Shown here piece by piece: positions 7,330 through 61,607 of a stretch of DNA of 64,000 bases. Origin of the DNA: Acidaminococcus massiliensis (GTDB lineage: Bacteria > Bacillota > Negativicutes > Acidaminococcales > Acidaminococcaceae); contig NZ_LT608315.1 of NCBI RefSeq assembly GCF_900095825.1, forward strand, positions 1-64,000. The letters run 5' to 3'. The notes under the pieces are model-generated. The model saw only the letters and a list, made by a program, of their open reading frames with translations. It was not told where the DNA came from and searched no databases. The stretch's first letter is position 1. The number at the start of each line of letters is the position of its first letter. Position numbers and translations under genes: made by a program.

Positions 7330-9192
7330 TTATATTTTCTTATCCGCTATGCCCATCCCCTTATCCAGAAGTTCGGTTTTTTGGAGTACATTGCCCTGCA
7401 AAAAAGCATGGACCCGTTCTGCCACCACCCGGTTCATGGTTTCCACAGCCGCCAGATCTTCCACCGACGCCTGCCGCATGGCCTCCAGGGAACCGAACCG
7501 CTTCCACAGGGAAGCCCGGCGTTTGGGCCCCATCCCTTCCAGATGGTCCAGGACGGACACCAAGTTTCGCCGAGCCAGCCGTTTCCGATGATAGGTAATG
7601 GCAAACCGATGGGCCTCGTCCCGAATGTGCTGGATCAGGTGAAGGGCAGGGGACATCTTATCCAGCAAGATACTGGTGTGGGCCCCTTCTTTGAAGATTT
7701 CTTCTTCCCGCTTCGCCAGGCCGATGACGGGAACTTCTTCCCCAGAGATACCCAGGCCCCGGATCACTTCGCAGGCAGAGCTCAGCTGTCCTTTGCCTCC
7801 ATCGATGATGATCAGGCTGGGCAGATCTTCCAGGTCCCGATAACGGCGGTAGACCACTTCCTGCATGGATTTGAAATCATCGGGCTTGCCTTCTGTGGAG
7901 CGGAGCTTGTACCGGCGGTAATCCTTCTTGCTGGGTTCCCCATTCCGGAACACCACCATAGAAGCCACCGTTTCCCGGCCCTGGTTGTGGGAAATGTCGA
8001 AGCAGTCCATCCGTTCCAAAGGCTTTACAAGGCCCAATGCTTTTTGCAGCTGTTCTGCCGCATCCAAGCCGGTCTGCCCAGAAGCCTGTCCTCGGCGCAG
8101 CCGTTCTTCCAGGTTCTTTTTCGCATTGTTCACTGCCATGAGCACCAGGTCATGCTTCAGCCCTCGTTGGGGTACCAGCAGATCTACGGTTTTTTCATTC
8201 AGGGTGCTGAGCCATTGGGAGAGCAGTGTCCTGTCGCTGTCTTCCAGTTCTTCGCTGACCAGGATTTCCCGTGGAGGACGGTGATTTTCGTGGTAGTACT
8301 GCTTCAGGAAGTCCGCCAGCACTTCTCCTCCCGGTTCCCCGATTTCCTGATCCAGGAAAAAGCTGTCCCGTCCCAAGATCTTGCCGCTGCGGATGAAGAA
8401 CACCTGGACACAGACTCCGCTGTCATCCATGGCCAACCCCACCACATCCCGGTCCCCGCTTTCTGTGGTGGCTTTCTGTTTTTCTGCCAGTTTCCGGACG
8501 CTCAGGAGGGAATCCCGGTACCGGGCTGCTGCTTCGAACTCCAGTCGGTCCGAAGCCTCCTGCATCTTGGCCGTCAATTCCTTTTCCAGCTGGGCCACTT
8601 TCCCATCTAGGAGCAGCAGCACGGAATCTACCAGCTGCCGATACTCACTCACCGGGACTTTCCCGGTACAAGGGGCCAGACAGCGATGGAGATGGTACTG
8701 GAGACAAGGCCGTTTGGCATTCAGGTTCCGGCAATGCCGGAGAGGAAACATGGTACGGATCAGTTTCATGGTGTCCCGGAGAGCCCCTGCATCGGCGAAG
8801 GGACCGTAATACCGTGCTCCATCCTTCAGGACCCTCCGGGTGAGCACCATCCGGGGATAGGCCTCCCCTACGGTGATCTTCAGATAGGGATAGGTCTTGT
8901 CGTCCTTCAGGTCGATGTTGTACCGGGGCCGGTACTTCTTGATCAGGTTGCATTCCAGGATCAAGGCTTCCATCTCACTGGCAGTGACGATGGTTTCGAT
9001 GGAAGCCACGTGGGCGTTGATGGCCCGGACCTTGGGGGACACCTGGCTGGCCGGGCGGAAATAGCTGCGCACCCGGTTCTTCAGGATCACCGCTTTCCCT
9101 ACGTAGATCACTTTGCCGGAAGCATCGTGCATGATGTAGACGCCCGGCGCATTGGGAAGTACCGCTAAGGTTTCCTTGATGGCATCGTTCAT
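7330..9192 (-). CDS. uvrC: excinuclease ABC subunit C
   Basis: A 620-residue UvrC, the nuclease that makes both incisions in nucleotide excision repair. It has an N-terminal GIY-YIG domain ([18 protein letters not shown] near residues 17-35), a central UvrB-interacting UVR motif around residue 205, an RNase H-like 5'-incision domain and C-terminal helix-hairpin-helix motifs ([18 protein letters not shown]). The start overlaps the uvrA stop by 4 bases, so it is translationally coupled as the last gene of uvrB-uvrA-uvrC. Confidence 0.97.
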
Positions 9193-12008
9193 ACCAAGAC
9201 CTTCTTTACATACTGGCCGGTGTAGGATTCCGGCACTTCCGCCACCTGTTCCGGAGTCCCGGTGGCGATCACCGTACCGCCCCGGTCGCCTCCTTCCGGC
9301 CCCAGGTCGATGAGCCAGTCAGCGCTTTTGATCACATCCAGGTTGTGTTCGATGACCACCACGGTGCTCCCGGCATCCACCAGCCGCTGGAGGACTTCCA
9401 GCAGTTTGTGGACATCCGCCATGTGGAGTCCGGTAGTGGGTTCATCCAGGATGTACAGAGTCCGTCCAGTGTTCACCTTGGCCAGTTCCGTGGCCAGTTT
9501 CACCCGCTGGGCTTCCCCGCCGGAGAGAGTGGTGGCCGCCTGGCCCAGCCGGATGTACCCCAGGCCCACGTCTTCCAGCACCTGGAGCTTCCGGAGGATC
9601 CGCTGCTGGTTGCTGAAATATTGGCAGGCTTCGCTGACGGTCATATCCAGGACTTCTGCGATGTTCTTCCCCTTGTACCGGACTTCCAGGGTATCCCGAT
9701 TGTACCGGGTGCCTTTGCACACTTCGCAGGGCACATACACATCAGGCAGGAAGTTCATCTCGATTTTCAGCATCCCGTCCCCATGACAGGCCTCGCACCG
9801 GCCCCCCTTCACGTTGAAGCTGAACCGGCCTGGCTTGTAGCCCCGGAGCTTGGCATCATTGGTGGTGCTGAACAAGGTCCTGATCAGATCAAAGGTCCCG
9901 GTATACGTAGCCGGATTGGATCGGGGTGTCCGGCCGATGGGGCTCTGGTCGATGTTGATCACCTTGTCGATGTGCTGGGTCCCGGTGATCCGGTCATGGG
10001 CCAGAGGCCGTTCCCGGGCCCCCATCAGTTTCTTGGCCAGGGCCTTGTACAGGATGTCGTTGATCAGGGTACTTTTGCCGCTGCCGCTGACTCCGGTGAC
10101 CACCGTCAGGGTCCCCAGAGGGATGGACACATCGATGTCCTTCAAGTTATTGGCCCGGGCGCCCTTGATGGTCAGCTTCTTCCCATTGCCTTTCCGGCGC
10201 TGGGCGGGCACAGGGATCTTCTTCCGGCCGCTGAGATACTGACCGGTGACGGATTCCGGCACCTGGCTGATTTCTTCCGCAGTCCCCTGGGCCACCACAT
10301 ACCCCCCATTTTCTCCGGCTCCCGGACCGATATCGATGATCTGATCCGCCGCCCGCATGGTGTCCTCATCATGTTCCACCACGATCAGGGTATTTCCCAT
10401 ATCCCGGAGGTTCTTCAGGGTTTCCAGCAGTTTGTCGTTATCCCGCTGGTGGAGCCCGATGCTGGGTTCGTCCAAGATGTAGAGCACGCCCACCAGGCCA
10501 GAACCGATCTGGGTGGCCAGCCGGATCCGCTGGGCTTCCCCTCCGGACAAGGTAGCCGCCGCCCGGTCCAAGGTCAGATAATCCAGCCCCACATTGTTCA
10601 GGAAGCTGAGCCGAGCGCGGATTTCCTTCAGGATCTGTTTGGCAATGAAAGCATCCCGGTCCGACAGATGGAGATCATTGAAAAAGGCCAGGCATTCCCG
10701 CACCGGCAGCTGGCACACCTGCTGGATGTTCTTCCCGTCCACAGTGATCCCCAGGACCTCCGGACGGAGCCGGGCCCCATGGCAGGTGGAACATTCGATG
10801 GCTGTCATGAAAGATTCATAATCCAATCGCTGGCTTTCGCTCATGGCCTCTTTCAGCCGCCGTTTCAGCACCGGGATAATCCCTTCGAAAGGCGTATTGT
10901 GGTCGTTGATCTCCCCCATGAGATTCTGGTAGGAGAAGGTGAAGATTTCGTCCGGGATCCCTTCCAGGAGTTCCTGCTGGAACTTTTTGGGCAGGTCTTT
11001 CCAGCAGTTCTGGAGGGAAAAACCCCGGCTTTTCAGTACGGCAGCCAGCTGACAGAGAAAGTAGGACTTCACATTGGAACTCACCGCTGCAATGGCCCCC
11101 TGATCAAAAGGTTTCGTTTTATCCGGGATGATCAGATCCGGGTCGAATTCCATATGCTGGCCCAGGCCCATACAATCCGGGCAGGCCCCGTAGGGGGCAT
11201 TGAAGGAAAACAGCCGGGGTTCGATTTCCGGCAGGCTGATGCCGCATTCCGCACAGGCGAACTTTTCGCTGTACACATGGGTCTCTCCCCCGATCTCTTC
11301 GATGGCCACGGTGCCTTCCCCCAGCTTCAGGGCTGTCTCCAGGGAATCGGTGAGCCGGCTCCCCAGGCTGGGACGGGCCACCAGCCGGTCCACCACTACG
11401 GAAATATAATGCTTTTTATTTTTGTCCAGCTGGATTGCCTCATCCAGTGTATAGATATGGTCATCCACCTTCACCCGCACATAGCCGGCCCGGCGGACGG
11501 TTTCCAGGATGTTTTTGTGTTCCCCTTTCCGTCCCCATACCACCGGGGCCAGGATCATGAACTTGGTCCCTTCCGGCAGTTCCAGCACCTTGTCGGCGAT
11601 CTGCTGAGGGGACTGCCGTTCGATCACCTTCCCGCACTTGGGGCAGTGGGGGATCCCGATCCGGGCAAACAGCAGCCGGAGATAGTCGTAGATCTCCGTC
11701 ACCGTCCCCACGGTGGACCGGGGGTTCCGGCTGGTGGTCTTCTGGTCGATGGAAATGGCCGGGGACAGCCCTCCGATATAGTCCACATCCGGTTTGTCCA
11801 TCTGTCCCAGGAACTGCCGGGCATAGGCGGACAGGCTTTCCACATACCGGCGCTGCCCCTCCGCATAGATGGTGTCAAAAGCCAGAGAGGATTTTCCGCT
11901 GCCGGACAGGCCGGTGATCACCACCAGCTTGTTCCGGGGAATCTTCAGAGATATATTCTTCAGGTTGTGCTGCCGCGCACCCTGGATCACAATGGCATCT
12001 TCATTCAT
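9189..12008 (-). CDS. uvrA: excinuclease ABC subunit A
   Basis: A 939-residue damage-recognition ATPase with two ABC modules. Walker A motifs are [13 protein letters not shown] near residue 33 and [15 protein letters not shown] near 640. The two signature motifs are [16 protein letters not shown] and [16 protein letters not shown]. Zinc-binding CxxC pairs are present ([29 protein letters not shown]). It overlaps both neighbours, by 8 bases with uvrB and 4 with uvrC. Length and domain order are normal. Confidence 0.98.
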
Positions 12009-50239: not shown

Positions 50240-50292
50240 AGGACAAAAAATGGGCTGTTGCACCATGCAGCAGCCCATTTTTTGTCCTTTTA
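50238..50292. terminator. bidirectional terminator between thiC and the DUF3100 operon
   Basis: A long near-perfect inverted repeat (AAAGGACAAAAAATGGGCTG...CAGCCCATTTTTTGTCC) flanked by A- and T-tracts. It includes the thiC stop codon and reaches the stop codon of the converging gene. Confidence 0.9.
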
Positions 50293-50745
50293 AATCTGTC
50301 CCAGTGCCTTCAGGATCACTTCGGCGATGACGGCCGAACCCAGATAGGTACCGATGAAGATCACACAGGCCAGGACCACGATCCGCCAGCCCGTTTTCTT
50401 AAAGGCATCCATATCCTTCCCGATGGAAATCCCTGCATAAGCCAGGATCGGCGTACACAAGGCCAGGAAGCCTACTTCCTTCATATACATATTGACGATT
50501 TCCGAACCTGGGAACCCAGGATAAGTCAGGATGCAGCCCAGGGTGGTGATATAAGCCACTGCCGGGATGCCGCCGGGGAGCACCCGGGCGGCAATGATGC
50601 CCGCCAGAGAGATGGCGATCAGGATCACCATGCCGGGCACAGCGTCCAAAAAAGGAATGTTGCTGGAAAGAGCATTGGCCACCAGAGAAAGGAAAGCCGT
50701 GATGATGAGGACCAGCGTGGTTTCAGGCAGGGTAAACGTTCTCAT
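50290..50745 (-). CDS. small membrane protein paired with DUF3100 protein
   Basis: A 151-residue protein with four to five predicted membrane helices and no catalytic motif that I recognise. The start at 50745 (MRTFTLPETTLVLIITAF) overlaps the DUF3100 stop by 4 bases, so the two are translationally coupled and probably form one complex. I infer a two-subunit transporter, but no function is established from sequence. Confidence 0.75.
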   Translation of the reverse strand: MRTFTLPETTLVLIITAFLSLVANALSSNIPFLDAVPGMVILIAISLAGIIAARVLPGGIPAVAYITTLGCILTYPGFPGSEIVNMYMKEVGFLALCTPILAYAGISIGKDMDAFKKTGWRIVVLACVIFIGTYLGSAVIAEVILKALGQI

Positions 50746-51542
50746 TTTCCTTCCTCCTCTTTGGTCAGCACATGACCGTATTTGATGATGCAGCATTTCT
50801 TATAGAGCCATTCCGTCATGGGCAGAGCCAGGAACACAGCCATATACACCCCGTCCAGACCGGAAAGCATATTGGAAGCGGTGGCAAAAGCAGCCAGCTG
50901 GTCAGCCATTTCCGGATACATGACGGTGAGTGTCCCCAGGGAAGCGGACATCATGCTGGCGCTCCCCACCCCGGAAGCCATGGCCAGGGAATAGGGATGG
51001 AAGATCTTCAAGGCAGCCAGGAAAGAAGCCATAATCCCGAAGAACACGGTGCCACAGACAGTCCCTGCAATGTACACGCTCATAACGCCCCGGCCTTCCG
51101 GCGTATCCAGGCCGTACTTTTCACCGATCAGGGCCACATTGGGTTCCCGGGCGATGGAATGGGCGGCTCCGATGGTCTCCCGTTTCAGTCCAAAGGCCAC
51201 TGCCAGAGGCACTCCCAGGAAGACCGTCCCCAGGTTCCCGAATTCCTGGAGGATCAGGGCAGGGCTGGCGCTGATGATCTTCGGCAGGGTGGGCCCCACC
51301 AGGGTCCCATAACGGGCCATGAGCAGCATCAGTGTGATGCCTACCAGGGACCCGGCGTCTTCCATATCCTTTTGTTTGGTCAGTTTGAAAAAGTTGGGAG
51401 TGGTCAGGATCCCCAGAATCAAGGCATACAGCATGGGGACGAACACCACTTTCCCCGGCCCCAGGCTAAAGGACTTGATACCGATCAGTTCAGCGATGAC
51501 CACCAAGGCCATGGCCGTAATGTGCAGTTTCCAATTAATCAT
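50742..51542 (-). CDS. DUF3100 family membrane protein
   Basis: A 266-residue protein with about seven membrane helices, recognised as DUF3100 by its N-terminal HITAMALVVIAELIG and SLGPGKVVFVPMLYAL, and a second-half MASGVGSASMMSASLGTL. The function of DUF3100 is unknown. The start at 51542 (MINWKLH) overlaps the amidohydrolase stop by 8 bases; the small membrane protein follows with a 4-base overlap. This tight coupling suggests transport of the hydrolase's substrate or product. Confidence 0.82.
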   Translation of the reverse strand: MINWKLHITAMALVVIAELIGIKSFSLGPGKVVFVPMLYALILGILTTPNFFKLTKQKDMEDAGSLVGITLMLLMARYGTLVGPTLPKIISASPALILQEFGNLGTVFLGVPLAVAFGLKRETIGAAHSIAREPNVALIGEKYGLDTPEGRGVMSVYIAGTVCGTVFFGIMASFLAALKIFHPYSLAMASGVGSASMMSASLGTLTVMYPEMADQLAAFATASNMLSGLDGVYMAVFLALPMTEWLYKKCCIIKYGHVLTKEEEGK

Positions 51543-52872
51543 GGTCGGGTTCCTCCTCGCTGAAATAGCCATCCAGTTTGGCAATGTATTGTTCTTTGGT
51601 GAGCGCCGGTTTGAAATCGGCCAGGATTTTCTTGGCTTCCTTGGCATCGTCGCTCAGCAGGTCGATGACCATGCCTGCGAAGGCTTTCCCGGGCAGCAGT
51701 GCCGCCGCTTTGAAATCCACCACTTTGAAGTCCGGTCCGTGGAGCAGTCCATCCACCCCACCGATGAAGGGATGGATGGCCGGCATCAGATGGGACACAT
51801 CCCCCATGTCCGTAGAAGCACTGAAATGCCCCGCATTGGTGATTTTCACCGCTGGGAACGCTTCCTGGGCATTGTGGACGAACAGTTCATTCATTTCCTG
51901 GTTGCAGATGAGAGGCAGCTGGCCGGGCAGGGTATCGATGTTCACCTTGGCTCCGATAGCGGCACCTCCTGCCCGGAGGGCTGCATCCACCTTGGCGTTG
52001 GTCCGGTCGATGGCATCCATGGTCTTGGCCCGGACATAGGTCTCGATCCGCACATCGTCGGGCACATTGTTCACCAGGTCCCCGCCTTTGGTGATGATGG
52101 GATGGACCCGGATAGCATCGTCATCCCGGAAAGTCTCCCGCAGGGCATTGATTCCCATGATTCCCAGCATGGCGGCATTCAAGGCATTGATTCCCTGGTC
52201 CGGAGCATCAGCGGCGTGGGCGGCTTTCCCCACATACTGGATGGTCTTGCCGATGAATCCGTTGCTGCTGGTACCGATGGCCACCACCGGCTCCGGAGTC
52301 TTTTTCTGGGAATGGATCATCATGGCCATGTCGATGTCATCGAATTCCCCTTCGTAGATCAATTCCCCTTTCCCATGGAGAAAATGGAGCTTCCCCTCCT
52401 TCCGCAGCTTTTTCCGGTAAGCAATCTGGACGTATTCTTCCGCCGGCACCCCGAAGAATACCACATTGCCGCGCAAGTCCTTCATGGCCCCGGTCTTAGC
52501 CAGCCCGTAGGCAGCTGCCAGCATGGAGGACTGCTGCATATGATGACCGCAGGCATGGGCCGCCCCTGTATCCGGATCCGCTTTGGGATGTTCCGGACAG
52601 CCGATGGCATCCAATTCACCCAGGATGGCGATGGTAGGACCTGGCTTCCCGCCCTTCAGCACCCCTTTGACGGCTGTGATGGCCATTCCCTTCCGATAGG
52701 GGATCCCCAGTTTGTCGAACTGTGCTGCCAGTTTTGCAGAAGTCTTGAATTCCTTGAAGCCAAATTCCGGCTCAGAAGCCACATCCGCTGCATAATCCTG
52801 CAGTTCCTGTGCAGAATCGTCGATCATCTTGAACACTTTTTGTTTCAATACTTCCTTATCCGTGATTTCCAC
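51535..52872 (-). CDS. M20D amidohydrolase, AbgB-like (aminobenzoyl-glutamate hydrolase subunit B type)
   Basis: A 445-residue metallopeptidase-family amidohydrolase. Metal-site motifs are GELDAIGCPEH, AAHACGHHMQ and PAEEYVQ, and the dimerisation domain contains GKAAHAADAPDQG. The overall pattern is closest to AbgB, which with AbgA cleaves p-aminobenzoyl-glutamate. Other M20D members hydrolyse N-acyl amino acids. It leads a three-gene operon with the DUF3100 pair, from the promoter at 52903-52931. Confidence 0.87.
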   Translation of the reverse strand: MEITDKEVLKQKVFKMIDDSAQELQDYAADVASEPEFGFKEFKTSAKLAAQFDKLGIPYRKGMAITAVKGVLKGGKPGPTIAILGELDAIGCPEHPKADPDTGAAHACGHHMQQSSMLAAAYGLAKTGAMKDLRGNVVFFGVPAEEYVQIAYRKKLRKEGKLHFLHGKGELIYEGEFDDIDMAMMIHSQKKTPEPVVAIGTSSNGFIGKTIQYVGKAAHAADAPDQGINALNAAMLGIMGINALRETFRDDDAIRVHPIITKGGDLVNNVPDDVRIETYVRAKTMDAIDRTNAKVDAALRAGGAAIGAKVNIDTLPGQLPLICNQEMNELFVHNAQEAFPAVKITNAGHFSASTDMGDVSHLMPAIHPFIGGVDGLLHGPDFKVVDFKAAALLPGKAFAGMVIDLLSDDAKEAKKILADFKPALTKEQYIAKLDGYFSEEEPDHD

Positions 52873-53032: not shown

Positions 53033-54262
53033 TCACCCGATCAGCAGCACACTCAGGTCATTCACATTGGTCCCGGTGGCGCCGGTGATCAGGAGGCCTC
53101 CTGTCTTTGCTAAAGCGTGGTAGGCATCGTTCTGGTCCAGTACATCAGAAATGGCTATCCCCTGTTCCGCCAGCTGCTGTTTCGTATGGCCATCTGCAAA
53201 ACCTCCAGCTGCATCTGTAGGTCCGTCCGTCCCATCGCTGCCGAAGGAGAACACTGCCACATTTTCCAGTCCGGCAATGCCTTCCGCCGCTGCCAGCGCC
53301 ATTTCCTGGTTCCGCCCGCCTTTGCCATGGCCATGGAGATAGACCACCGTCTCTCCCCCAGCCAGTACAGCCAGCTTCTTCCCGCTGGAAGCATACTGCC
53401 GTCCGATGGCTGCCAGGAAACTGCCGGCTTCCTTGGCCTGGCAGTTCAGACTGGTGGTCAAGAGGCAGGTTTCATACCCCAGCTTTTCTGCCGCCTGCCG
53501 GCCCGCCGCAGCCAGTTCCGTCACGCTGCCGGTGATGACCGTTTCCACATTGTCCAATGCCTTCGGAGTTTCCTCCCGGAGGGCTTGTTCCGCATCGGCC
53601 GGCAGCTGGATCTTGAACTTCCGGATGGCAGCCAAAGCTTCCTCGCAAGTGGACGAATCCGGATAAGCCGGGCCGGAAGCGATCATATCCAAGGGATCTC
53701 CGATGATGTCGCTGAGGACGATGGCATAGACTTTCGCAGGTGCGCAGAGATGGGCAAATTTCCCGCCCTTCACACTGCTCAGCCGCTTCCGTATGGTATT
53801 CATGGAAACGATGTCCGCCCCGCTGGCCAACAGATCGGAGGTAATGGACTGGAGTTCCTGCAGGGAAATCAGCGGTTTTTCAAAAAGAGCTGACCCGCCG
53901 CCGCTGATCAAGAACAGCACCGTATCTTCCTCCTGGAGGCCCTGGACCAGTTCAATGGCCCGCTGGGTTGCTTTCAGGGAATTCTCATCGGGCACCGGAT
54001 GGCCGGCTTCCCAGATTTCCAGAGGGGGCAGAGCTCCCTTGCTGTGGCCGTATTTGGTGATCACGATCCCGGCAGAGATCCGTCCGTCCAGGATCCCCAC
54101 TGCTGTCTTGGCCATCTGCCAGGCAGCTTTGCCGATGGCTACCAGGATGATTTTCCCTTTGCCGAATCCTTTATGTTCCAAAGCCTTTGCCACAGCCGCA
54201 TCCGGCAAAGAAGCCCGGATGGCCGTCTGCATGATGGTCTCTGCATCTGTACGTAAGCTCAT
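53033..54262 (-). CDS. glycerate 2-kinase (MOFRL/GckA family)
   Basis: A 409-residue class II glycerate kinase. It has an N-terminal DUF4147 domain with LVAIGKAAWQMAK and ISGGGSALFEKP, and a C-terminal MOFRL domain with GRNQEMALAAA and FGSDGTDGPTDAAG. It phosphorylates D-glycerate, usually to 2-phosphoglycerate. The ATG at 54262 (MSLRTDAE) was chosen over one six codons earlier because GGGGAAAAGAGC precedes it. It has its own promoter 40 bases upstream and lies on the same strand as the sigma-54 operon, 280 bases behind the dehydrogenase. Confidence 0.92.
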   Translation of the reverse strand: MSLRTDAETIMQTAIRASLPDAAVAKALEHKGFGKGKIILVAIGKAAWQMAKTAVGILDGRISAGIVITKYGHSKGALPPLEIWEAGHPVPDENSLKATQRAIELVQGLQEEDTVLFLISGGGSALFEKPLISLQELQSITSDLLASGADIVSMNTIRKRLSSVKGGKFAHLCAPAKVYAIVLSDIIGDPLDMIASGPAYPDSSTCEEALAAIRKFKIQLPADAEQALREETPKALDNVETVITGSVTELAAAGRQAAEKLGYETCLLTTSLNCQAKEAGSFLAAIGRQYASSGKKLAVLAGGETVVYLHGHGKGGRNQEMALAAAEGIAGLENVAVFSFGSDGTDGPTDAAGGFADGHTKQQLAEQGIAISDVLDQNDAYHALAKTGGLLITGATGTNVNDLSVLLIG

Positions 54263-54544
54263 GCTCTTTTCCCCTTTCAATGTCGTTGTGAACTGGTTCC
54301 ATTATAGCATATGGAAAAACGTAATACGCAGAAAACCTATCCTCTTCAGAAAGTCATGGTTTCAATGAATCCCTTCTGCTGGAAGCGGTTCGGCAAAAGT
54401 TCTGGAAAGGACAGCTGGCCGTTTGCATATCTCGTTTTCTGGGATGTCGCCAATTGCCGCAGTAAGACTGCCATGGCTGCAATGGATCTTTTTTGCGTAC
54501 ACAGCCATACAGCGGCTCCTGCCTTCCGCTCTTCTCCCTTTCCA
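54263..54544. other. gap between dehydrogenase and glycerate kinase; possible gene remnant
   Basis: Apart from the glycerate kinase promoter, I see no confident gene. On the minus strand a frame of about 65 codons reads through without a good start (it includes AAMAVLLRQLATSQKTRYA) and ends near 54356. A second 63-codon frame starts on the dehydrogenase stop. Neither has a recognisable family, so this may be a decayed gene end. No terminator is visible after the dehydrogenase. Confidence 0.35.
54301..54309 (-). promoter_or_regulatory. glycerate kinase promoter (extended -10)
   Basis: Minus strand TG-C-TATAAT, without a good -35, 38 bases before the ATG. Confidence 0.6.
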
Positions 54545-55513
54545 TTACGCGCCGACCTGGTTCACCGGTTTCCCCTGGAGGAAAGCTTCCAGGTTCCCGA
54601 CAGCGATATCCATGAGCCGCTGCCGGCTCTCTTTGGCGCCCCAGGACATATGCGGGGTGATGATGCAGTTCTTGGCCTTCAGCAGGGGATTGTCACCTCG
54701 GATGGGTTCCGTGGACACCACGTCCACACCGGCAGCATATACTTTGCCGGAATCCAGGGCTTCGGCCAAGTCTTTTTCATTGACCAAGGGCCCCCGGCTG
54801 TTGTTGATGAGGATGACCCCATCCTTCATCTTTGCGATATTATCCCGGCAAATGATATTTTCCGTTTCCGGGAACAAGGGGCAGTGGAGGACGATCACAT
54901 CGGAACGGGCGAACAGTTCCTCTTTGTCCACATAGTCGGCGATTTGTTTTCCCGCATCATTGGGATAAGCATCATTGGCCAGGACTTTCATGCCCAGTGC
55001 TTTGGCGATCCGTCCCGTGGTCTGGCCGATCCGTCCGAAGCCGATGATTCCCATGGTCTTGCCAGCCAGTTCGATCAGCGGATAATCCCAGAAGCACCAG
55101 TCTTTGCAGTTTTCCCAGGCTCCCTGATGGACAGCTTGGTCATGATGGCCCACTCGGTTGCAGATTTCCAGCAGCAGGGCGATGGCAAACTGTCCCACCG
55201 CAGCGGTCCCGTAAGTGGGGATGTTGGTCACCACGATGCCCCGTTCCTTGGCTGCCGCCACATCCACCACATTGTAGCCGGTAGCCAGGACCCCGATGAA
55301 TCCCAGATGAGGGCGGCGGTCGATGACTCCTTTGGACAAGGGTGTCTTGTTGGTGAACACGATTTCTGCATCCCCGATCCGCTGGAGGATCTCTTTTTCA
55401 TCGGTCACAGAAGTCCGATCGTAGACCTGCAGATTACCCAGCGCTGCCATTCCAGCCCAGCTGATGTCTCCAGGATTCAAGGTATACCCATCCAATACGA
55501 CGATTTTCTTCAT
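54545..55513 (-). CDS. D-2-hydroxyacid dehydrogenase (glycerate/hydroxypyruvate reductase-like)
   Basis: A 322-residue NAD(P)-dependent dehydrogenase. The nucleotide-binding motif is GFGRIG (158-163). The catalytic set is R240 (NNSRGPLVN), E269 (STEP) and H288 (TPHMSWG). The pattern is nearest to glycerate dehydrogenase/hydroxypyruvate reductase (HprA). It would reduce a 2-oxo acid such as hydroxypyruvate or glyoxylate. It is the last gene of the sigma-54 operon, 19 bases after the VOC gene; the glycerate kinase downstream fits a hydroxypyruvate-to-glycerate step. Confidence 0.9.
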   Translation of the reverse strand: MKKIVVLDGYTLNPGDISWAGMAALGNLQVYDRTSVTDEKEILQRIGDAEIVFTNKTPLSKGVIDRRPHLGFIGVLATGYNVVDVAAAKERGIVVTNIPTYGTAAVGQFAIALLLEICNRVGHHDQAVHQGAWENCKDWCFWDYPLIELAGKTMGIIGFGRIGQTTGRIAKALGMKVLANDAYPNDAGKQIADYVDKEELFARSDVIVLHCPLFPETENIICRDNIAKMKDGVILINNSRGPLVNEKDLAEALDSGKVYAAGVDVVSTEPIRGDNPLLKAKNCIITPHMSWGAKESRQRLMDIAVGNLEAFLQGKPVNQVGA

Positions 55514-55532
55514 GTTCCATCCTTCTTTCTTT

Positions 55533-55931
55533 TTAACTTTCTATTTCTGCGTCATTTCCATAAACGCTTAATTCCACCAGATTTCCATCCGGATCCCGGA
55601 GATACAGGCTCTCCATGGTCCCGCAGGCTCCATGCCTCCGGCAGGGGCCCGTTTCCACCGGATATCCGGCAGCAAGGACCTCTTTCCGGACCTTTTCCAA
55701 GGGGCCTTTGACAACCAGACAGAAATCCAGGCTCCCAGGAGTAGGGCAGGCAGCTGCCGGCAGGAATTCAGCCTTCCGGGTATGGATATTGATTTTTTCC
55801 CGGCCGAACCGCAGGGCATAGCGGCCATTGGTTTCTTCCACCGTCATGTGCAGGAGGTCCCGATAAAACTCCAGACATTTTTCCAGATTTCCGGTGGTCA
55901 GCACAAAATGGTCCAAGCGTTCGATCTGCAT
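55533..55931 (-). CDS. VOC-superfamily protein (glyoxalase/dioxygenase-like)
   Basis: A 132-residue vicinal-oxygen-chelate protein with candidate metal ligands H8 (LDHFVL), H50 (INIHTRK) and E120 (NLVELSVYG). The C-terminal SLYLRDPDGNLVELS is typical of the YycE/STM3117 virulence-protein subgroup. Possible roles are lyase, epimerase or detoxification of an aldehyde; none is certain. Start at 55931 (MQIERLDHF). It lies between the permease and dehydrogenase genes, 16 and 19 bases from them. Confidence 0.83.
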   Translation of the reverse strand: MQIERLDHFVLTTGNLEKCLEFYRDLLHMTVEETNGRYALRFGREKINIHTRKAEFLPAAACPTPGSLDFCLVVKGPLEKVRKEVLAAGYPVETGPCRRHGACGTMESLYLRDPDGNLVELSVYGNDAEIES

Positions 55932-55947
55932 ACCCTTTCCCTTCCTT

Positions 55948-57213
55948 TTACACAAAGATCCTGAACAAGCCCAAAAACGCCAGCAGAGTCAGCAATCCAA
56001 TAGACCCGATGGCCCACAGGAGCAATTCCAGGAACAATTTTTCCGCTGGATATTTCTTCCCATATTCGGCATCGGTCCCGCAGGCCCCCATGATCACGGC
56101 GCCCCCTGTAGAAGCAGGGCTCAAGCCTGCCACAGAATCAAAGAGAGCCACCACGCTGACCAATTCAGACAAAGGGACAGTTCCGCCCAGGTTCTCTCCT
56201 ACAAGGCCCACAGTTGGGAGCAGCGTGGGGAATACCACCCCTATGGCAGAAGAGAACCAGCTCATGACCCCGGCCAGGAGGCCCATCAGGGCACCGGCGG
56301 TGGAAGGGCTCATAGCTCTGGAAATCATCCGGGCCAAGAGATTGATCCCTCCTGTGGCTATGACCAGATTCATCAGGACTCCCACTCCGCAGACCATGAT
56401 CAGGGTACTCCAGGGAACACTTTTGAAAGCCGTCTTTTCATCTCCGATCCCCAGCAGGATCAAAAGTGCTGTCATCAAGAACGAAGCCAGCCCCACATTC
56501 ATCCCCAGCTTGAGGACCAATAGGATCATCACCGCTACGCTGCCCAGTGCAATCAGCTGTGCAGCCGTATAATGCAGGTCATCCACCGTCCGGGAAATCT
56601 TTTCCGGTGCCTTGACCTGGTATCCCTTATAAAAGAAAAATACCAGTACTGCCAACACCAGTGTACCCAAAAATGTGTCCAAGAGCAAGATGCTATTGGG
56701 AACCACGATTCCCTGTTTGCCAAGGATTTCCTGGATCAGGACCCCTTCCGGAGTGATGGGTGAGAAACGGCCGCAGTAAGTCCCCAGGTTCCCCAACAGC
56801 AGCAGCATGATGGGGTGATAGCCAGTTTCATGGGCCAAGGGAACGGCCACCGCCGCCGCAAAAGCCATGGCCGGCACACAGCCGGGGCCGATGGCCGCAA
56901 ATACGAACCCCACCCCATAAACCAGAGGTGGAACCAGCCACACATGGCGTCCGAAGAGACCGACCAGTTTCCGCATGCTCAATTCGATGCAGCCGTTGCT
57001 TTGGATGATCCCGAAAAACAGGGTGATCCCCAGGAGGATCATAAACAAATTGGCACTGAATCCGGCAATGATCTTCGCCCCTTTGAACAATCCGGTGCCA
57101 TAGCCTAGGATCACTGCCCCGGCAATGGCCAACAGCCCCACATTCAGTTTTTTCACGAATCCCACCAGCACTGTGAAGAGCAGGAGCAAAAGTGCAGCCA
57201 ACCCAATATCCAT
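55948..57213 (-). CDS. MatC-type carboxylate permease (ion transporter superfamily)
   Basis: A 421-residue integral membrane protein with about 11-12 helices. The N-terminal third (MDIGLAALLLLLFTVLVGF, IGPGCVPAMAFAAAVAVPL) resembles the MatC/dicarboxylate-carrier N-terminal family of the ion transporter superfamily. The second-half ATGGINLLARMISR and GLSPASTGGAVIMG blocks fit this. It probably imports the carboxylate handled by the operon. It lies 10 bases after the HMG-CoA-lyase-like gene, with AAGGAG before the ATG. Confidence 0.82.
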   Translation of the reverse strand: MDIGLAALLLLLFTVLVGFVKKLNVGLLAIAGAVILGYGTGLFKGAKIIAGFSANLFMILLGITLFFGIIQSNGCIELSMRKLVGLFGRHVWLVPPLVYGVGFVFAAIGPGCVPAMAFAAAVAVPLAHETGYHPIMLLLLGNLGTYCGRFSPITPEGVLIQEILGKQGIVVPNSILLLDTFLGTLVLAVLVFFFYKGYQVKAPEKISRTVDDLHYTAAQLIALGSVAVMILLVLKLGMNVGLASFLMTALLILLGIGDEKTAFKSVPWSTLIMVCGVGVLMNLVIATGGINLLARMISRAMSPSTAGALMGLLAGVMSWFSSAIGVVFPTLLPTVGLVGENLGGTVPLSELVSVVALFDSVAGLSPASTGGAVIMGACGTDAEYGKKYPAEKLFLELLLWAIGSIGLLTLLAFLGLFRIFV

Positions 57214-57223
57214 TTTCTTCTCC

Positions 57224-58129
57224 TTATACCTGACGGATCACACAGGGTTTCTCCGGAATATTGATCTGATGGCCGCTGAAGTTCCCGTCGATGACAGAGT
57301 GGACATATTTGGCAGTCTTCAGCAGAGACGCAAAATCGATTCCTGTATCATACCCGCATTTGTTCAGCATATAGACAAGATCCTCCGTAGAGGTATTACC
57401 AGAGGCTCCGGGAGCAAAAGGACATCCTCCCAGCCCGCCGACAGCACTCTGGACACTGTCCGCCCCATTCTGCAGAGCCACATAACTGTTCAGGATCCCC
57501 ATATTCCGGGTATCATGGATATGGACATTGAATTCATCGGACGGAAAAGCCTTTTTCACAGTCCGGAATACTTTTTCCACCAAGGTAGGATAAGCCAATC
57601 CTACCGTATCACAAAGGGTAAACGCCCGGATGCCCAAGACATGGAGTTTCCCCACCAATTCCACCAGCGCCTCCACCGGCATCTCGCCTTCGAAGGGGCA
57701 GCCAAAAGCGGTGGCGATATCTTGCGTGATCTTCACATCGGGAAATGCCTGGCGGATCTTTTTCATCTCTTCGATGGATTGGGCTACAGTCCGTTTTACA
57801 TTATTCATATTGTGGGATTCGCTCAGGGACAGGACTGGAGAAATTTCCGTAAGGCCTGCTTCCACAGCCAGCCTGGCCCCGGTGAAATTGGGGACCAGGG
57901 CGAACAGTTTGTTTTTGGGATATTTTGCCAAGCAGTGTTCCACCACCTGACGGCAGTCCCGGAGCTGCGGAATTGCTTTGGGACTGACAAAGGAAGTGAT
58001 CTGGATCTTCTGGAAGCCTGCAGCCACCAGCTGATCGATGATACGCAGTTTTGTTTCCGTAGGAATGAATTCTTTCACATTCTGGAATCCGTCTCTCGGT
58101 CCGATTTCTACCACTTTGACTTTTTTCAT
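57224..58129 (-). CDS. HMG-CoA-lyase-like DRE-TIM acyl-CoA lyase
   Basis: A 301-residue DRE-TIM barrel enzyme with all known HMG-CoA lyase active-site elements. These are GPRDGFQN (R12, D13), VHIHDTRN (H203, H205), the signature GGLGGCPFAPGASGN (C236, N245) and TEDL. HMG-CoA lyase splits 3-hydroxy-3-methylglutaryl-CoA into acetyl-CoA and acetoacetate; relatives cleave other 3-hydroxyacyl-CoA esters. The context, beside a CoA-transferase and an oxo-acid reductase, suggests cleavage to acetyl-CoA plus a 2-oxo acid (inference). I chose the ATG at 58129 over a GTG inside the ribosome binding site. Confidence 0.88.
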   Translation of the reverse strand: MKKVKVVEIGPRDGFQNVKEFIPTETKLRIIDQLVAAGFQKIQITSFVSPKAIPQLRDCRQVVEHCLAKYPKNKLFALVPNFTGARLAVEAGLTEISPVLSLSESHNMNNVKRTVAQSIEEMKKIRQAFPDVKITQDIATAFGCPFEGEMPVEALVELVGKLHVLGIRAFTLCDTVGLAYPTLVEKVFRTVKKAFPSDEFNVHIHDTRNMGILNSYVALQNGADSVQSAVGGLGGCPFAPGASGNTSTEDLVYMLNKCGYDTGIDFASLLKTAKYVHSVIDGNFSGHQINIPEKPCVIRQV

Positions 58130-58141
58130 GATTGCCACCCC

Positions 58142-59335
58142 TTAAAATACGCCTTTTTTCAATGCATCCAAATACTCTTCATGGGTCATCCCCAGTTTTT
58201 TCTGGAGGATCAGTTCCGTGTGCTGGCCCAAAGTAGGCGCCGGGCGGGTAATGGAGACCTTTTCATGGGTGAACTTCAGCTGGCTGCCTGTAACCTTGAT
58301 TTTTCCAGCTACTGGATGTTCCATTTCCACAAACATTTCCCGTGCTCCAGCAATGTGGGGATCTTTGACCACCCGGTCGATGGTATTGACCGGAGAAGAA
58401 GGGATGCCCGCTTTCAGCATGATATCCACAATGTCATCGATGTTCCGTTCCCGGGTCCAGGCTTCGATGATTTCTTTCAGCGGTCCATGGTTTTCCACCC
58501 GCTTGATATTGGTGGCAAACCGTTCTTCTTCCAGCGCCGGGATCTTCAAGACTCCTTTCAGCAGATTGTAGAGTTTGTCATTCCCGCAGGCAATGATGAC
58601 CATGCCGTCTTTGGCATCGAAGGAATCATAAGGATAAATGGCTTCATACCGATTGCCGATCCGGGTAGGGATCCTGCCGGTGCACAGGTAAATCATATTG
58701 ATGATTTCCAGCGAGGAAACCATGGAATCCACCAGGGCCACATCCACTTTGTCCCCCTTGCCCGTTTTCAGCCGATGGGCATAGGCTGCCAGGACGCCCA
58801 CACAGCAGCTGACTCCGCCCATCACATCGGAAATTGCAGTACCAGTCCGGGTGGGTTTTCCTCCCGGCCAACCGGTGGTACTCATCAGTCCGCTCATGGC
58901 CTGTCCCAGGATGTCATAGCCTGGCCGCTGGGAATACGGTCCATAGTCGCCGAAGCCAGAAACAGCTCCGTACACAATGGCCGGATTGATTTTTTGGAGT
59001 TCTTCATACCCCAGCCCCAGTTTTTCCATGACCCCCGGGCGGAAATTTTCCAGGACGATATCACTTTGCTTCACCAGTTCCCGGAAGATTTCCTTCCCCT
59101 TTTCACTTTTCAGGTTCAGGGTCATGCCCCATTTATTGCGGTTCAGATTCATAAAATAGGCACTTTCACCATGGACGATGGGAGCATTTTTCCGGGAGTC
59201 ATCGCCTCTTCCCGGCATTTCGATCTTAATGACTTCTGCCCCCATATCTGCCAGCATCATCCCGCAGTAAGGTCCGGCCAACACCCGTGTCAGATCCAGT
59301 ACTTTCACTCCATCCAGCATGCCTTTTCCGTTCAT
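58142..59335 (-). CDS. class III CoA-transferase (CaiB/BaiF family)
   Basis: A 397-residue family III CoA-transferase. It has VLDLTRVLAGPYCGMMLADMG (split: VLDLTRVLAGPYC, GMMLADMG) near the N-terminus, the ENFRPGVMEKLGLGY block and the catalytic Asp in RPGYD (D141). It moves CoA from a donor such as succinyl- or acetyl-CoA to a carboxylate. The ATG at 59335 has GGAG 8 bases upstream; one two codons earlier is too close. First gene of the operon, 46 bases after a -24/-12 promoter. Confidence 0.92.
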   Translation of the reverse strand: MNGKGMLDGVKVLDLTRVLAGPYCGMMLADMGAEVIKIEMPGRGDDSRKNAPIVHGESAYFMNLNRNKWGMTLNLKSEKGKEIFRELVKQSDIVLENFRPGVMEKLGLGYEELQKINPAIVYGAVSGFGDYGPYSQRPGYDILGQAMSGLMSTTGWPGGKPTRTGTAISDVMGGVSCCVGVLAAYAHRLKTGKGDKVDVALVDSMVSSLEIINMIYLCTGRIPTRIGNRYEAIYPYDSFDAKDGMVIIACGNDKLYNLLKGVLKIPALEEERFATNIKRVENHGPLKEIIEAWTRERNIDDIVDIMLKAGIPSSPVNTIDRVVKDPHIAGAREMFVEMEHPVAGKIKVTGSQLKFTHEKVSITRPAPTLGQHTELILQKKLGMTHEEYLDALKKGVF

Positions 59336-59380
59336 TTTCATTTCTCCTTTCAGAATGGATTCTTGTCTGCCCCGTTTTAT

Positions 59381-59396
59381 TGCAAAATCTATGCCA
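59381..59396 (-). promoter_or_regulatory. sigma-54 (-24/-12) promoter of the CoA-transferase operon
   Basis: Minus strand TGGCAT-AGATT-TTGCA, with GG and GC at exact -24/-12 spacing (consensus TGGCAC-N5-TTGCW, one mismatch). It lies 46 bases before the CoA-transferase ATG, and the sigma-54 activator gene is immediately upstream. Confidence 0.88.
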
Positions 59397-59451
59397 ATTC
59401 GAAATTTTCTTTTCATTCCATAAAAAATATGTTTCTTCCCCGCTTAGAAGG

Positions 59452-59498
59452 CAAAAAAGACTCCTGCAAAACAGAAATTTCTCGTTTTGCAGGAGTCA
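59452..59498 (-). terminator. terminator after the sigma-54 activator gene
   Basis: Minus strand: GACTCCTGCAAAAC...GTTTTGCAGGAGTC, a 14-bp perfect stem, then six T residues. Confidence 0.9.
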
Positions 59499-59508
59499 TC
59501 CATGCTTC

Positions 59509-59529
59509 TTTGAAATTAATTGTTTCAAA
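59509..59529. promoter_or_regulatory. candidate enhancer (upstream activating sequence)
   Basis: Inverted repeat TTTGAAA-N7-TTTCAAA between the activator's stop codon and its terminator. It is about 113 bp upstream of the -24/-12 element, a usual distance for sigma-54 enhancers. The activator probably binds here (inference). Confidence 0.5.
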
Positions 59530-59544
59530 TCATTTCATTTTGTT

Positions 59545-61467
59545 TCATTTACTTTCTGTATCGTATTTTTTCATTTTCCGCCATAAGGTACTGCGGCTGT
59601 ATCCCAAAGCAGCTGCCGTCTTGGCCAGATCAAGATCATTTTCCTTCAGGACCCGAAGGATCCGTTCCCGTTCCCATTCCAGCAGTTCGCCGCCAGAAAC
59701 CCCCTTGCCCATTTCCTGGATCTGCGGCAGAGACTGGAGCAGATAGCGGCGGATAAAATCAGGACCAGCACCCTGCTGGAGGAGCAGGCTGAGCCGTTCC
59801 AGCAAGTTGGACAGTTCCCGCACATTCCCCGGCCAGCTGTAGCCCTGGAGCTTTTCCAAGATTCCGCGGACTGTTTTGCGGCTGTTTCCGTCACTTTCCG
59901 GCCAAAGCCTGTTGAAAAGTTCCATGCCCAGAGGAAGGATGTCTTCCTGCCGTTCCCGCAAAGGCGGCAGATACAAGTTCAGGACATTCAGCCGATAATA
60001 AAGGTCCGCCCGGAACTTTTTCTCCTGGATCTCTTCCAGCAGATTCCGGTTGGTGGCCGCAATGATCCGGATATCCACAGGAGTCACCGTATCGCTGCCC
60101 AATCTCCTGACCTCCTTTTCCTGGAGTACCCGGAGCAGCTGCACCTGGGTGGCTACCGGCATCTCTCCGATTTCATCCAGAAAAATCGTCCCCTGATGGG
60201 CCATTTCGAACAGTCCTTTTTTCCCGCCCCGGCTGGCACCGGTAAAGGCGCCTTCCACATACCCGAAAAGCTCAGATTCCAAGAGATCCCGGGGAAAAGC
60301 ACCGCAGTTGACAGCCACAAAGGGGCCGCTGGCCCGAAGACTGGCATTGTGGATGCTTTGGGCAAACATTTCCTTCCCTGTCCCGGTTTCTCCCTGGATC
60401 AGGATGGTGGCATCCGTCTTGGAAAATTGTTCAGCCAAGGAGACGGTATCCCGGAGCTGTCGGGATCCGCCTTTGATATCCACAAAATGATATTTGGCCG
60501 TCAGTCCTTTTTGGTGGAGCTGGATCCGGATTTTCTGTTCCTGGGCCTGGAGTTTCTTCACATCCTGGAAGATCCCTACGGCACCCAGGGTACGTCCTTC
60601 TACTTTGATAGGAAGCAGATTGGCAGAAACCAGTTTCCCTGCCAAATGGTGGAGTTCTCCCAGCCGGGGCTTGCCTCCCTGCAGCACTTCCAGCATCCGG
60701 ACCTTTCGGATGGCTTCCGTCAAATGCCAAGGATTTTCTCCGGCAGGATTCCCCAAAAGCATCCTGGCCCTTTCGTTCATAAGATCCGGCCGGCCCTGGC
60801 TGTCAATGGACAGCACCGCATCATGGGTATAGTCCAGGATCAGGCCATACCGTTCCAACTGCAGTTTCAGGGCCTGCTGTTTCTTTTCTTCATTTTTCTG
60901 TACTTCCAGCCATTGGACAGCGGTTTCCATGGCCAAAAGCAACGAATCCACTGAACTTTCAATGGTGGTATGTTCCAGTCCTTCCTGTGCAGAAAAACGG
61001 GCGCTGTCCGCACCGCCCACGCCCAGGACCGCTCCGTCCTTTACGGCTTCTGCAACGGCTTCCGCACACTGTTCCAAAGAAGAAAAAGTATAATACAGTG
61101 CCTGGATATGCTGAAGGCTGCAGGCCGTCTTCACATCTGCCGGGATCCTCCCGTAGGAGAACAATGCCACCTTTCCCTGGATGGCGGCTGCTTTTTCCAG
61201 GGCATCTACATAATCAGCCAAGGTCATGCCGATTTCCACGATAGGAACGGCAAACTGTGCTTCCAGCATTTTCTTCGTCCCTCGGCGGCTGATGAACAGC
61301 CTAGCTCCTGCCTTGATCAAATTTTCTCCCACTGACAGGGCATCGCCAAGAGAAGCCTTCACCACCCCGATGGGAAAACGATGCTCCTGCACAAGCTGCC
61401 GGCTCCGCCGCGAAAGTTCTTCCGTAGGGGCGATCAGCCAAATCTGCCTATCTTGAGAAGAATCCAT
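59545..61467 (-). CDS. PrpR-type sigma-54-dependent transcriptional activator
   Basis: A 640-residue activator with an N-terminal PrpR_N sensory domain (about 1-185), PAS domain (about 205-305), AAA+ sigma-54 interaction domain (about 330-565) and C-terminal Fis-type helix-turn-helix (about 595-640). It has Walker A GETGTGKE (359-366) and the sigma-54-contacting GAFTGA (406-411). PrpR_N domains bind small effectors, 2-methylcitrate in classical PrpR. This one probably senses the substrate or an intermediate of the adjacent operon. It is in the same orientation, directly upstream of the -24/-12 promoter. Confidence 0.94.
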   Translation of the reverse strand: MDSSQDRQIWLIAPTEELSRRSRQLVQEHRFPIGVVKASLGDALSVGENLIKAGARLFISRRGTKKMLEAQFAVPIVEIGMTLADYVDALEKAAAIQGKVALFSYGRIPADVKTACSLQHIQALYYTFSSLEQCAEAVAEAVKDGAVLGVGGADSARFSAQEGLEHTTIESSVDSLLLAMETAVQWLEVQKNEEKKQQALKLQLERYGLILDYTHDAVLSIDSQGRPDLMNERARMLLGNPAGENPWHLTEAIRKVRMLEVLQGGKPRLGELHHLAGKLVSANLLPIKVEGRTLGAVGIFQDVKKLQAQEQKIRIQLHQKGLTAKYHFVDIKGGSRQLRDTVSLAEQFSKTDATILIQGETGTGKEMFAQSIHNASLRASGPFVAVNCGAFPRDLLESELFGYVEGAFTGASRGGKKGLFEMAHQGTIFLDEIGEMPVATQVQLLRVLQEKEVRRLGSDTVTPVDIRIIAATNRNLLEEIQEKKFRADLYYRLNVLNLYLPPLRERQEDILPLGMELFNRLWPESDGNSRKTVRGILEKLQGYSWPGNVRELSNLLERLSLLLQQGAGPDFIRRYLLQSLPQIQEMGKGVSGGELLEWERERILRVLKENDLDLAKTAAALGYSRSTLWRKMKKYDTESK

Positions 61468-61607
61468 GATATCCTCCTTTTCCCATTTTCCCTCATTATA
61501 CCCTATTTCTCAACTCCCTGAAAAATACCCGGAAATCCGGCACAGCCTTGCACCAAAGTACGGACGGATGGTACAATGGGGCAAACAGCTGAAAAAGGAG
61601 TCTTTCC

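Follow-up and report, generated by a model that had tools for sequence, protein, structure and literature searches.

In Pseudomonas aeruginosa, itaconate is degraded by the products of the PA0878-0886 cluster (ich, mcd, rdoPA, mmgE, ict, ccl, and a TRAP transporter). According to de Witt et al., the (S)-2-hydroxyparaconate lactonase PA0880 (RdoPA) yields itatartarate, and its deletion stops conversion of 2-hydroxyparaconate, a lactone that occurs naturally as the (S) form and blocks growth on itaconate; itatartarate is reported there as a dead end that Pseudomonas does not use further, and the engineered P. putida KT2440 of that study forms itatartarate from 2-hydroxyparaconate but is unable to consume it (PMC9875883). 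Here, we describe a predicted operon in a 64-kb stretch of Acidaminococcus massiliensis DNA (contig NZ_LT608315.1; hereafter the window, from the genome coded G000). It encodes a coenzyme A (CoA)-transferase (COAT), an acyl-CoA lyase (HMGL), a permease, a VOC protein, and a D-2-hydroxyacid dehydrogenase (DHDH), and is followed by a glycerate kinase gene (GLYK). With a probability that we put at just over one half, this operon degrades a fungal acid derived from itaconate, taking 2-hydroxyparaconate via itatartarate and itatartaryl-CoA to acetyl-CoA and hydroxypyruvate, and the latter via D-glycerate to 2-phosphoglycerate. The genes, in order of transcription, are:

59545-61467, minus strand: PrpR-type sigma-54-dependent activator, 640 amino acids (PF06506, PrpR_N; PF00158, Sigma54_activat)
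58142-59335, minus strand: family III (CaiB/BaiF) CoA-transferase, 397 amino acids (PF02515, CoA_transf_3, 438 bits)
57224-58138, minus strand: HMGL-type TIM-barrel acyl-CoA lyase, 304 amino acids, GTG start (PF00682)
55948-57213, minus strand: MatC/CitMHS-type carboxylate permease, 421 amino acids (PF07158, MatC_N; PF03600)
55533-55931, minus strand: VOC (Glyoxalase) protein, 132 amino acids, candidate (S)-2-hydroxyparaconate lactonase
54545-55513, minus strand: D-2-hydroxyacid dehydrogenase, 322 amino acids, candidate hydroxypyruvate reductase (PF02826; PF00389)
53033-54262, minus strand: MOFRL-type glycerate kinase, 409 amino acids, resident gene downstream (PF13660, DUF4147; PF05161)

The intergenic gaps from COAT through HMGL, MatC, and VOC to DHDH are 3, 10, 16, and 19 bases, and GLYK starts 282 bases beyond the DHDH gene. 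The original prediction, made from the letters of the window alone, had named all seven genes and their families correctly but had given the gaps as 10-19 bases. For COAT, the ATG at 59335 was preferred as the start because the longer frame, to 59416, begins upstream of the -24/-12 promoter element.

The gene content and order, the promoter element, the insertion, the conservation, and the family memberships are observed, and we infer every substrate and every reaction of the proposed route from gene content and chemistry. The MatC permease would import the acid, the VOC protein would open the lactone ring of 2-hydroxyparaconate to give itatartarate, and the CoA-transferase would form the C4 CoA-thioester of itatartarate. 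HMGL would split itatartaryl-CoA into acetyl-CoA and hydroxypyruvate, DHDH would reduce hydroxypyruvate to D-glycerate, and the resident GLYK would convert this to 2-phosphoglycerate; in three of four Clostridial relatives, a split transketolase could take hydroxypyruvate as donor. Itatartaryl-CoA (2-hydroxy-2-(hydroxymethyl)succinyl-CoA) was proposed as the substrate because, by simple chemistry, it is the thioester on which an HMGL-type lyase has to act by retro-Claisen cleavage if its products are acetyl-CoA and hydroxypyruvate. The latter product would explain both the kinship of DHDH to an enzyme of a glyoxylate-carboligase/glycerate-kinase operon and the split transketolase in three of the four relatives. 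This substrate was deduced from the transketolase and DHDH before the link between the VOC family and itatartarate was found. The original prediction had held that an acid is activated and cleaved to acetyl-CoA plus a 2-oxo acid, with hydroxypyruvate as one option, and this part is now the best-supported reading, given the transketolase and the 61% identical relative of DHDH. Its list of candidate substrates, however, lacked 2-hydroxyparaconate and itatartarate, the VOC family link having been overlooked. We found no paper in the open-licence library searched that joins itatartarate with hydroxypyruvate.

The window operon follows the same CoA-transferase/lyase logic as itaconate degradation, in a variant form whose lyase belongs to a type with the opposite handedness. 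Both systems have a CaiB-type CoA-transferase, a lyase that releases acetyl-CoA (predicted here), a VOC-family member, and carboxylate transport. In contrast to the Pseudomonas cluster, the lyase of the window is HMGL-type (PF00682) rather than CitE-type (PF03328), the interval 54545-61467 is devoid of a MaoC hydratase (itaconyl-CoA hydratase), an acyl-CoA dehydrogenase, and MmgE, a dehydrogenase is added, and predicted PrpR/sigma-54 control takes the place of LysR.

The handedness typical of HMGL-type lyases is consistent with this substrate. A priority-rule calculation assigns the same spatial arrangement to (S)-3-hydroxy-3-methylglutaryl-CoA (HMG-CoA), (R)-citramalyl-CoA, and (S)-itatartaryl-CoA. 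In the cited part of the literature, TIM-barrel HMG-CoA lyases are specific for (S)-HMG-CoA, and the CitE-type enzymes PA0883, which is specific for (R)-HMG-CoA, and Rv2498c act on the opposite hand (PMC6689899). Because (S)-HMG-CoA and (S)-itatartaryl-CoA share their arrangement and the natural lactone is the (S) form, an HMGL-type lyase fits, whereas the CitE-type lyase of the itaconate pathway does not. Thus, assuming that the family handedness is kept, the HMGL-type enzyme should fit natural itatartaryl-CoA and the itaconate lyase should fail on it, which agrees with the reported dead end. More tentative, and somewhat less likely than not, is the wider proposal that the handedness of HMGL makes possible a complete and undescribed pathway that breaks down itatartarate as well as (S)-2-hydroxyparaconate, a fungal antimicrobial, by cleaving what is out of reach for the itaconate pathway, and that, in addition, the Clostridial relatives use a sigma-54 of their own to read promoters with boxes set one helical turn further apart. 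Were the proposed route correct, the operon would be the missing itatartarate route, and the need for an opposite-handed lyase would be accounted for. It would also supply enzymes that act on itaconate derivatives relevant to industry and medicine, and imply that anaerobes compete with itaconate-making fungi.

Evidence for hydroxypyruvate as the product comes from DHDH and the transketolase. DHDH is 60.6% identical to an Enterococcus gilvus plasmid protein, whose gene is preceded by those for a thiamine-diphosphate enzyme and then a xylose-isomerase-like TIM barrel (PF01261) and is followed by that for a glycerate kinase; an allantoinase gene lies close by. The thiamine-diphosphate enzyme scores best as glyoxylate carboligase, below the cutoff (636 vs. 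791 bits), and the glycerate kinase passes its model; this gene order is that of the known glyoxylate-to-phosphoglycerate route, where hydroxypyruvate is the substrate of the dehydrogenase. With its dehydrogenase (61%) next to a glycerate kinase, the E. gilvus locus corresponds to the glyoxylate carboligase/hydroxypyruvate isomerase/hydroxypyruvate reductase/glycerate kinase operons found in organisms that use allantoin. The source of hydroxypyruvate would be glyoxylate in those operons, but a C-C lyase in that of the window. DHDH itself scores against glyoxylate/hydroxypyruvate reductase models, but below their cutoffs. Among solved structures, the closest to the N subunit of the transketolase from one Clostridial locus (L005, below) is the split transketolase of Carboxydothermus hydrogenoformans (6yak, E 2.1e-89), whose donor, in the cited part of its description, is hydroxypyruvate and not pyruvate (PMC7661550). 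Unlike that enzyme, the version in the Clostridial relatives sits inside a catabolic cluster, whereas the window operon has none.

Orthologs were sought in one scan of 84,980 genomes with short peptide patterns, and the gene content of the loci was then established by tblastn. This produced four orthologous Clostridial loci, from a Mediterraneibacter metagenome-assembled genome (MAG; L005), a Eubacteriales MAG (L006), a Faecalicatena orotica isolate, the type strain (L007), and an Oscillospiraceae MAG (L008), with lyases 73-81% identical to that of the window. The COAT, HMGL, and DHDH genes lie within ~20 kb of each other in all four, a co-location that appears to be more than chance. In L005, L006, and L007, these three genes stand in line on one strand, COAT is 82-85% identical to that of the window, and a PrpR protein is 61, 55, and 55% identical to the window activator, respectively; DHDH is 67-81% identical across all four loci. 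The split transketolase is present in three of the four; in L005 and L007, the genes for its two subunits (N and C) separate that for the lyase from that for DHDH. In L008, genes for the lyase, transketolase N and C, VOC (55%), MatC (55%), and COAT (56%) stand in line, and DHDH (70%) is on the other strand, ~9 kb away, beside a second split transketolase. That second transketolase, a dehydrogenase-like protein, and a TRAP transporter adjoin DHDH (L008:2230-7847), possibly as another branched-sugar-acid pathway.

A fifth, less similar locus (L022, genome G330; lyase 61%, COAT 74%) has neither DHDH nor the remaining cluster genes. In the four COAT-HMGL loci without DHDH (L009, L010, L022, and L023), tblastn at E <= 1e-6 found no VOC, transketolase, metallo-hydrolase of the L005 type, or alpha/beta hydrolase of the L006/L007 type, an absence that we count in favor of itatartarate. 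Wider sampling turned up few further lyases. At E <= 1e-120, the lyase was found in one of 100 relatives, the window genome itself. At E <= 1e-118, it was found in two of 391 genomes of the class of genome G102 (one being G102 itself) and in one of 397 and one of 300 in two further samples, each time only the genome at the center; in these three samples, which may overlap, scoring covered a small number of candidates in each genome (mostly up to 5-7), such that misses are possible. Two of the loci without DHDH, L009 (7901-10076) and L010 (8131-10282), are near-identical COAT-HMGL pairs that lie far apart in the genome of the window, with lyases 56% identical to that of the operon; one has PrpR, MatC, and a canonical sigma-54 site, and the other a different permease and a GntR-type gene. 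The pair is a recent duplication. The same genome has a further lyase module, to which no substrate is assigned (L012:6223-12125). In it, genes for COAT, an amidohydrolase-like protein, a permease, HMGL (36%), and a distantly related D-2-hydroxyacid dehydrogenase (26%) stand in line.

The link to 2-hydroxyparaconate comes from the VOC protein. A P. aeruginosa plasmid carries a locus with the PA0878-0886 gene order, and the VOC encoded there, equated with PA0880 by gene order and not by locus tags, is 48.8% identical to that of the window over 122 amino acids. Several observations weigh against this link and the route as a whole. The window VOC is as close to VOCs from unrelated contexts (38-51% identity) as to the P. 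aeruginosa lactonase (47%), members of the lactonase-like set are 49-69% identical to one another (one Phaeobacter paralog apart), and the eight VOC contexts fetched comprise two itaconate clusters (P. aeruginosa and Phaeobacter), five others, and one that could not be judged. VOC phylogeny was set aside as proof of lactonase function, other VOCs being equally close. The nearest solved structure is STM3117 (E 1.2e-31), assayed, in the portion of the study cited, as a methylglyoxal glyoxalase (PMC7397319). VOC occurs in only two of five loci, compared with three of five for the transketolase, which the window host itself does not have in its cluster. Relatives of DHDH occur in three further contexts, one beside an HpcH/HpaI-type aldolase (71% identity), one unannotated, and one with no telling neighbor. 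The place of VOC could be taken by other hydrolases. In L005, a metallo-hydrolase has N-acyl-homoserine lactonases and 4-pyridoxolactonase as its best matches but scores below the cutoffs of the lactonase models, and L006 and L007 encode an alpha/beta hydrolase to which the models assign no specificity; both are possible replacements. The lactonase-like metallo-hydrolase of L005 lies with citDEF-like genes, flanked by two prpR genes (L005:3261-6588), and one may speculate that the CitE-type lyase encoded there, of opposite handedness, could serve the other enantiomer.

The residues of the lyase do not mark its substrate. Its R15, D16, H206, H208, C239, and N248, which we take to be the catalytic Arg and Asp, the two metal His, the Cys, and the Asn, are invariant in eight aligned sequences. 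They are conserved in the known HMG-CoA lyases (Bacillus subtilis YngG, 1ydo; P. aeruginosa PA2011), which are of the same fold family. Unlike these enzymes, the window lyase has Gln at the position of human E72, presumably the signature Glu of HMG-CoA lyases, and Asp at that of Y167 (human numbering), and its operon context is unlike leucine degradation. Glu occupies the E72 position in the three distinct natural HMG-CoA lyases aligned, and the 13 distinct loci of G000 and the Clostridia aligned there have Gln in eight cases and Glu in five. Because paralogs without DHDH have it too, Gln at this position says nothing for itatartaryl-CoA. Both residues, each present in such paralogs, were dropped as substrate markers.

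The main rival, which we consider unlikely, is that the operon acts on (R)-citramalate or a precursor; (R)-citramalyl-CoA would give acetyl-CoA and pyruvate, DHDH would make D-lactate, and VOC would be a glyoxalase or a housekeeping protein. The shared handedness of (R)-citramalyl-CoA and (S)-HMG-CoA favors it, as do the MatC-type permease and the CoA-transferase, whose nearest solved structure is succinate-hydroxymethylglutarate CoA-transferase (SUGCT; 9br6, E 3.9e-87), and L009 and L010 have neither DHDH nor VOC, as citramalate catabolism would need. Citramalate does not, however, explain the transketolase in three of the four relatives, whose nearest split transketolase rejects pyruvate, or the 61% relative of DHDH next to glyoxylate carboligase and glycerate kinase, and making D-lactate does not need a lactonase-family protein. 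Less probable still is another substrate that ends in hydroxypyruvate or D-glycerate, such as hydroxycitrate or its lactone. Cleavage of hydroxycitrate gives acetyl-CoA and oxaloglycolate, from which decarboxylation and reduction lead to D-glycerate. Such a route would accommodate the citDEF-like genes of L005 as well as a lactonase, DHDH, and the transketolase, but citDEF occurs in just one of the four orthologous loci, the nearest relatives of the CoA-transferase act on C5-C6 dicarboxylates, and the VOC family is tied in print to 2-hydroxyparaconate. Catabolism of 3-hydroxy-3-methylglutarate, in which the transferase makes HMG-CoA for cleavage to acetyl-CoA and acetoacetate, is very improbable, despite the nearest CoA-transferase structure being SUGCT and the lyase passing PRK05692, the NCBIfam model of the HMG-CoA lyase subfamily (294 bits; cutoff 246). 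Acetoacetate is no expected substrate of a D-2-hydroxyacid dehydrogenase or a transketolase, Gln stands where the natural HMG-CoA lyases aligned have Glu, and leucine-degradation genes were not found in the operon; HMG-CoA or leucine degradation is thus not favored. Least credible is a malate-type substrate, giving acetyl-CoA and glyoxylate with DHDH as glyoxylate reductase: DHDH has its sub-cutoff scores against such models, but HMGL-type lyases, to our knowledge, act on tertiary alcohols, and the transketolase, VOC, and GLYK would be left without a role.

The following regulatory features precede the genes of the proposed itatartarate operon:

59396-59381, minus strand: sigma-54 -24/-12 element TGGCATAGATTTTGCA, which fits TGGCAYRN4TTGCW at all defined positions
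59497-59453, minus strand: intrinsic terminator of the activator gene, with a 14-bp perfect stem, a loop of 11, and T6 (folded)
59547-59542 and 59527-59522, minus strand: candidate activator-binding TGAAAC repeats, the second within the palindrome TTGAAACAATTAATTTCAA (59528-59510)

The element TGGCATAGATTTTGCA is the sole exact match to TGGCAYRN4TTGCW on both strands of the whole 64 kb; the original prediction had called it near-consensus. With this element, an enhancer-binding activator, and one RpoN encoded in G000, the operon is predicted to be sigma-54-dependent; its promoter spacing is normal, and the signal for the PrpR-type protein would be the substrate or an intermediate of the route. 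The terminator sits between the activator gene and the promoter element and was overlooked by our terminator scan, which accepted loops of 3-8 only. TGAAAC, a motif first spotted by eye, with the regions picked afterwards, occurs 18 times across nine regions upstream of the operon and its relatives (1-3 per region; ~1.7 expected from mononucleotide shuffles). No recognized terminator was found by the scan and folding between DHDH and GLYK, and read-through into GLYK is therefore possible.

Comparison with the genus indicates that the operon was inserted next to GLYK. The GLYK and mscS genes occur in all nine genomes of the genus, that of the window included, and are within ~550 bases of each other in seven of the eight siblings (six divergent, like the window, and one with mscS on the GLYK strand); in the eighth, they are on separate contigs. 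In the window, they are 7345 bases apart. Two siblings (L026 and L027) have intergenic regions of ~110 bases with which two short stretches of the window align, namely 54286-54312, in the GLYK promoter region, and 61568-61605; of the other two siblings aligned, L028 matched over 12-16 bases at one flank only and L029 gave nothing clear. Thus, a piece of about 7.25 kb (~54313-61567) with six genes was inserted between GLYK and mscS. The exact joints are uncertain because 61481-61507, within the activator's promoter region, also resembles the sibling intergenic region. The lyase was not found in any of the eight siblings at E <= 1e-120, nor was a match to GLYK found by tblastn in L005-L008. GLYK is judged resident because it is genus-wide and adjoins mscS in siblings without the lyase. 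On this synteny, the six-gene set is horizontally acquired and GLYK is a genus-core gene outside the acquired unit; the kinase that the original prediction placed after the operon is indeed downstream, but its membership of the operon is rejected.

In L005, L006, and L007, an rpoN gene adjoins prpR, and six upstream regions carry TGGCAYR-N14-TTGCT, with N14 in place of the canonical N4:

L005 2961-3261 and 8538-8766: upstream of citD and COAT
L006 5631-5855 and 8547-8793: upstream of the alpha/beta hydrolase gene and COAT
L007 5464-5808 and 8487-8779: upstream of the alpha/beta hydrolase gene and COAT

The distance between the boxes is exactly 10 bp, or one helical turn, above the canonical one in all six regions. 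With gaps of 4-29 allowed, each region contains a single TGGCA...TTGC pair, which lies 40-48 bases ahead of the start of the gene. Across the three genomes, the N14 pattern has 11 exact matches, six being these regions, compared with one in G103, two in G000, and 0-2 per genome for a reversed-pattern control. The canonical pattern ending in TTGCT has 2, 4, 0, 3, and 1 matches in G000, G100, G101, G102, and G103 (control 1, 0, 3, 2, and 2). G100 and G102 carry a second RpoN (33-34% identical), the cluster-linked RpoN alone was found in G101, and no RpoN was found in G103. Among 299 genomes of the family, the cluster-linked type was found in one, which is G102 (E <= 1e-80). When six RpoN proteins were aligned, no insertion was obvious between their DNA-binding parts, and no report of a longer-spaced sigma-54 promoter was found among the matches listed in the open-licence library searched. 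The L008 locus, whose MAG yielded no RpoN, encodes a PrpR_N protein with a weak Sigma54_activat domain (7907-9832, minus strand), which may work without sigma-54.

In the window, genes for an M20-type amidohydrolase, a DUF3100 protein, and a small protein that matches LysO below threshold stand in line just downstream of GLYK (50290-52872, minus strand).

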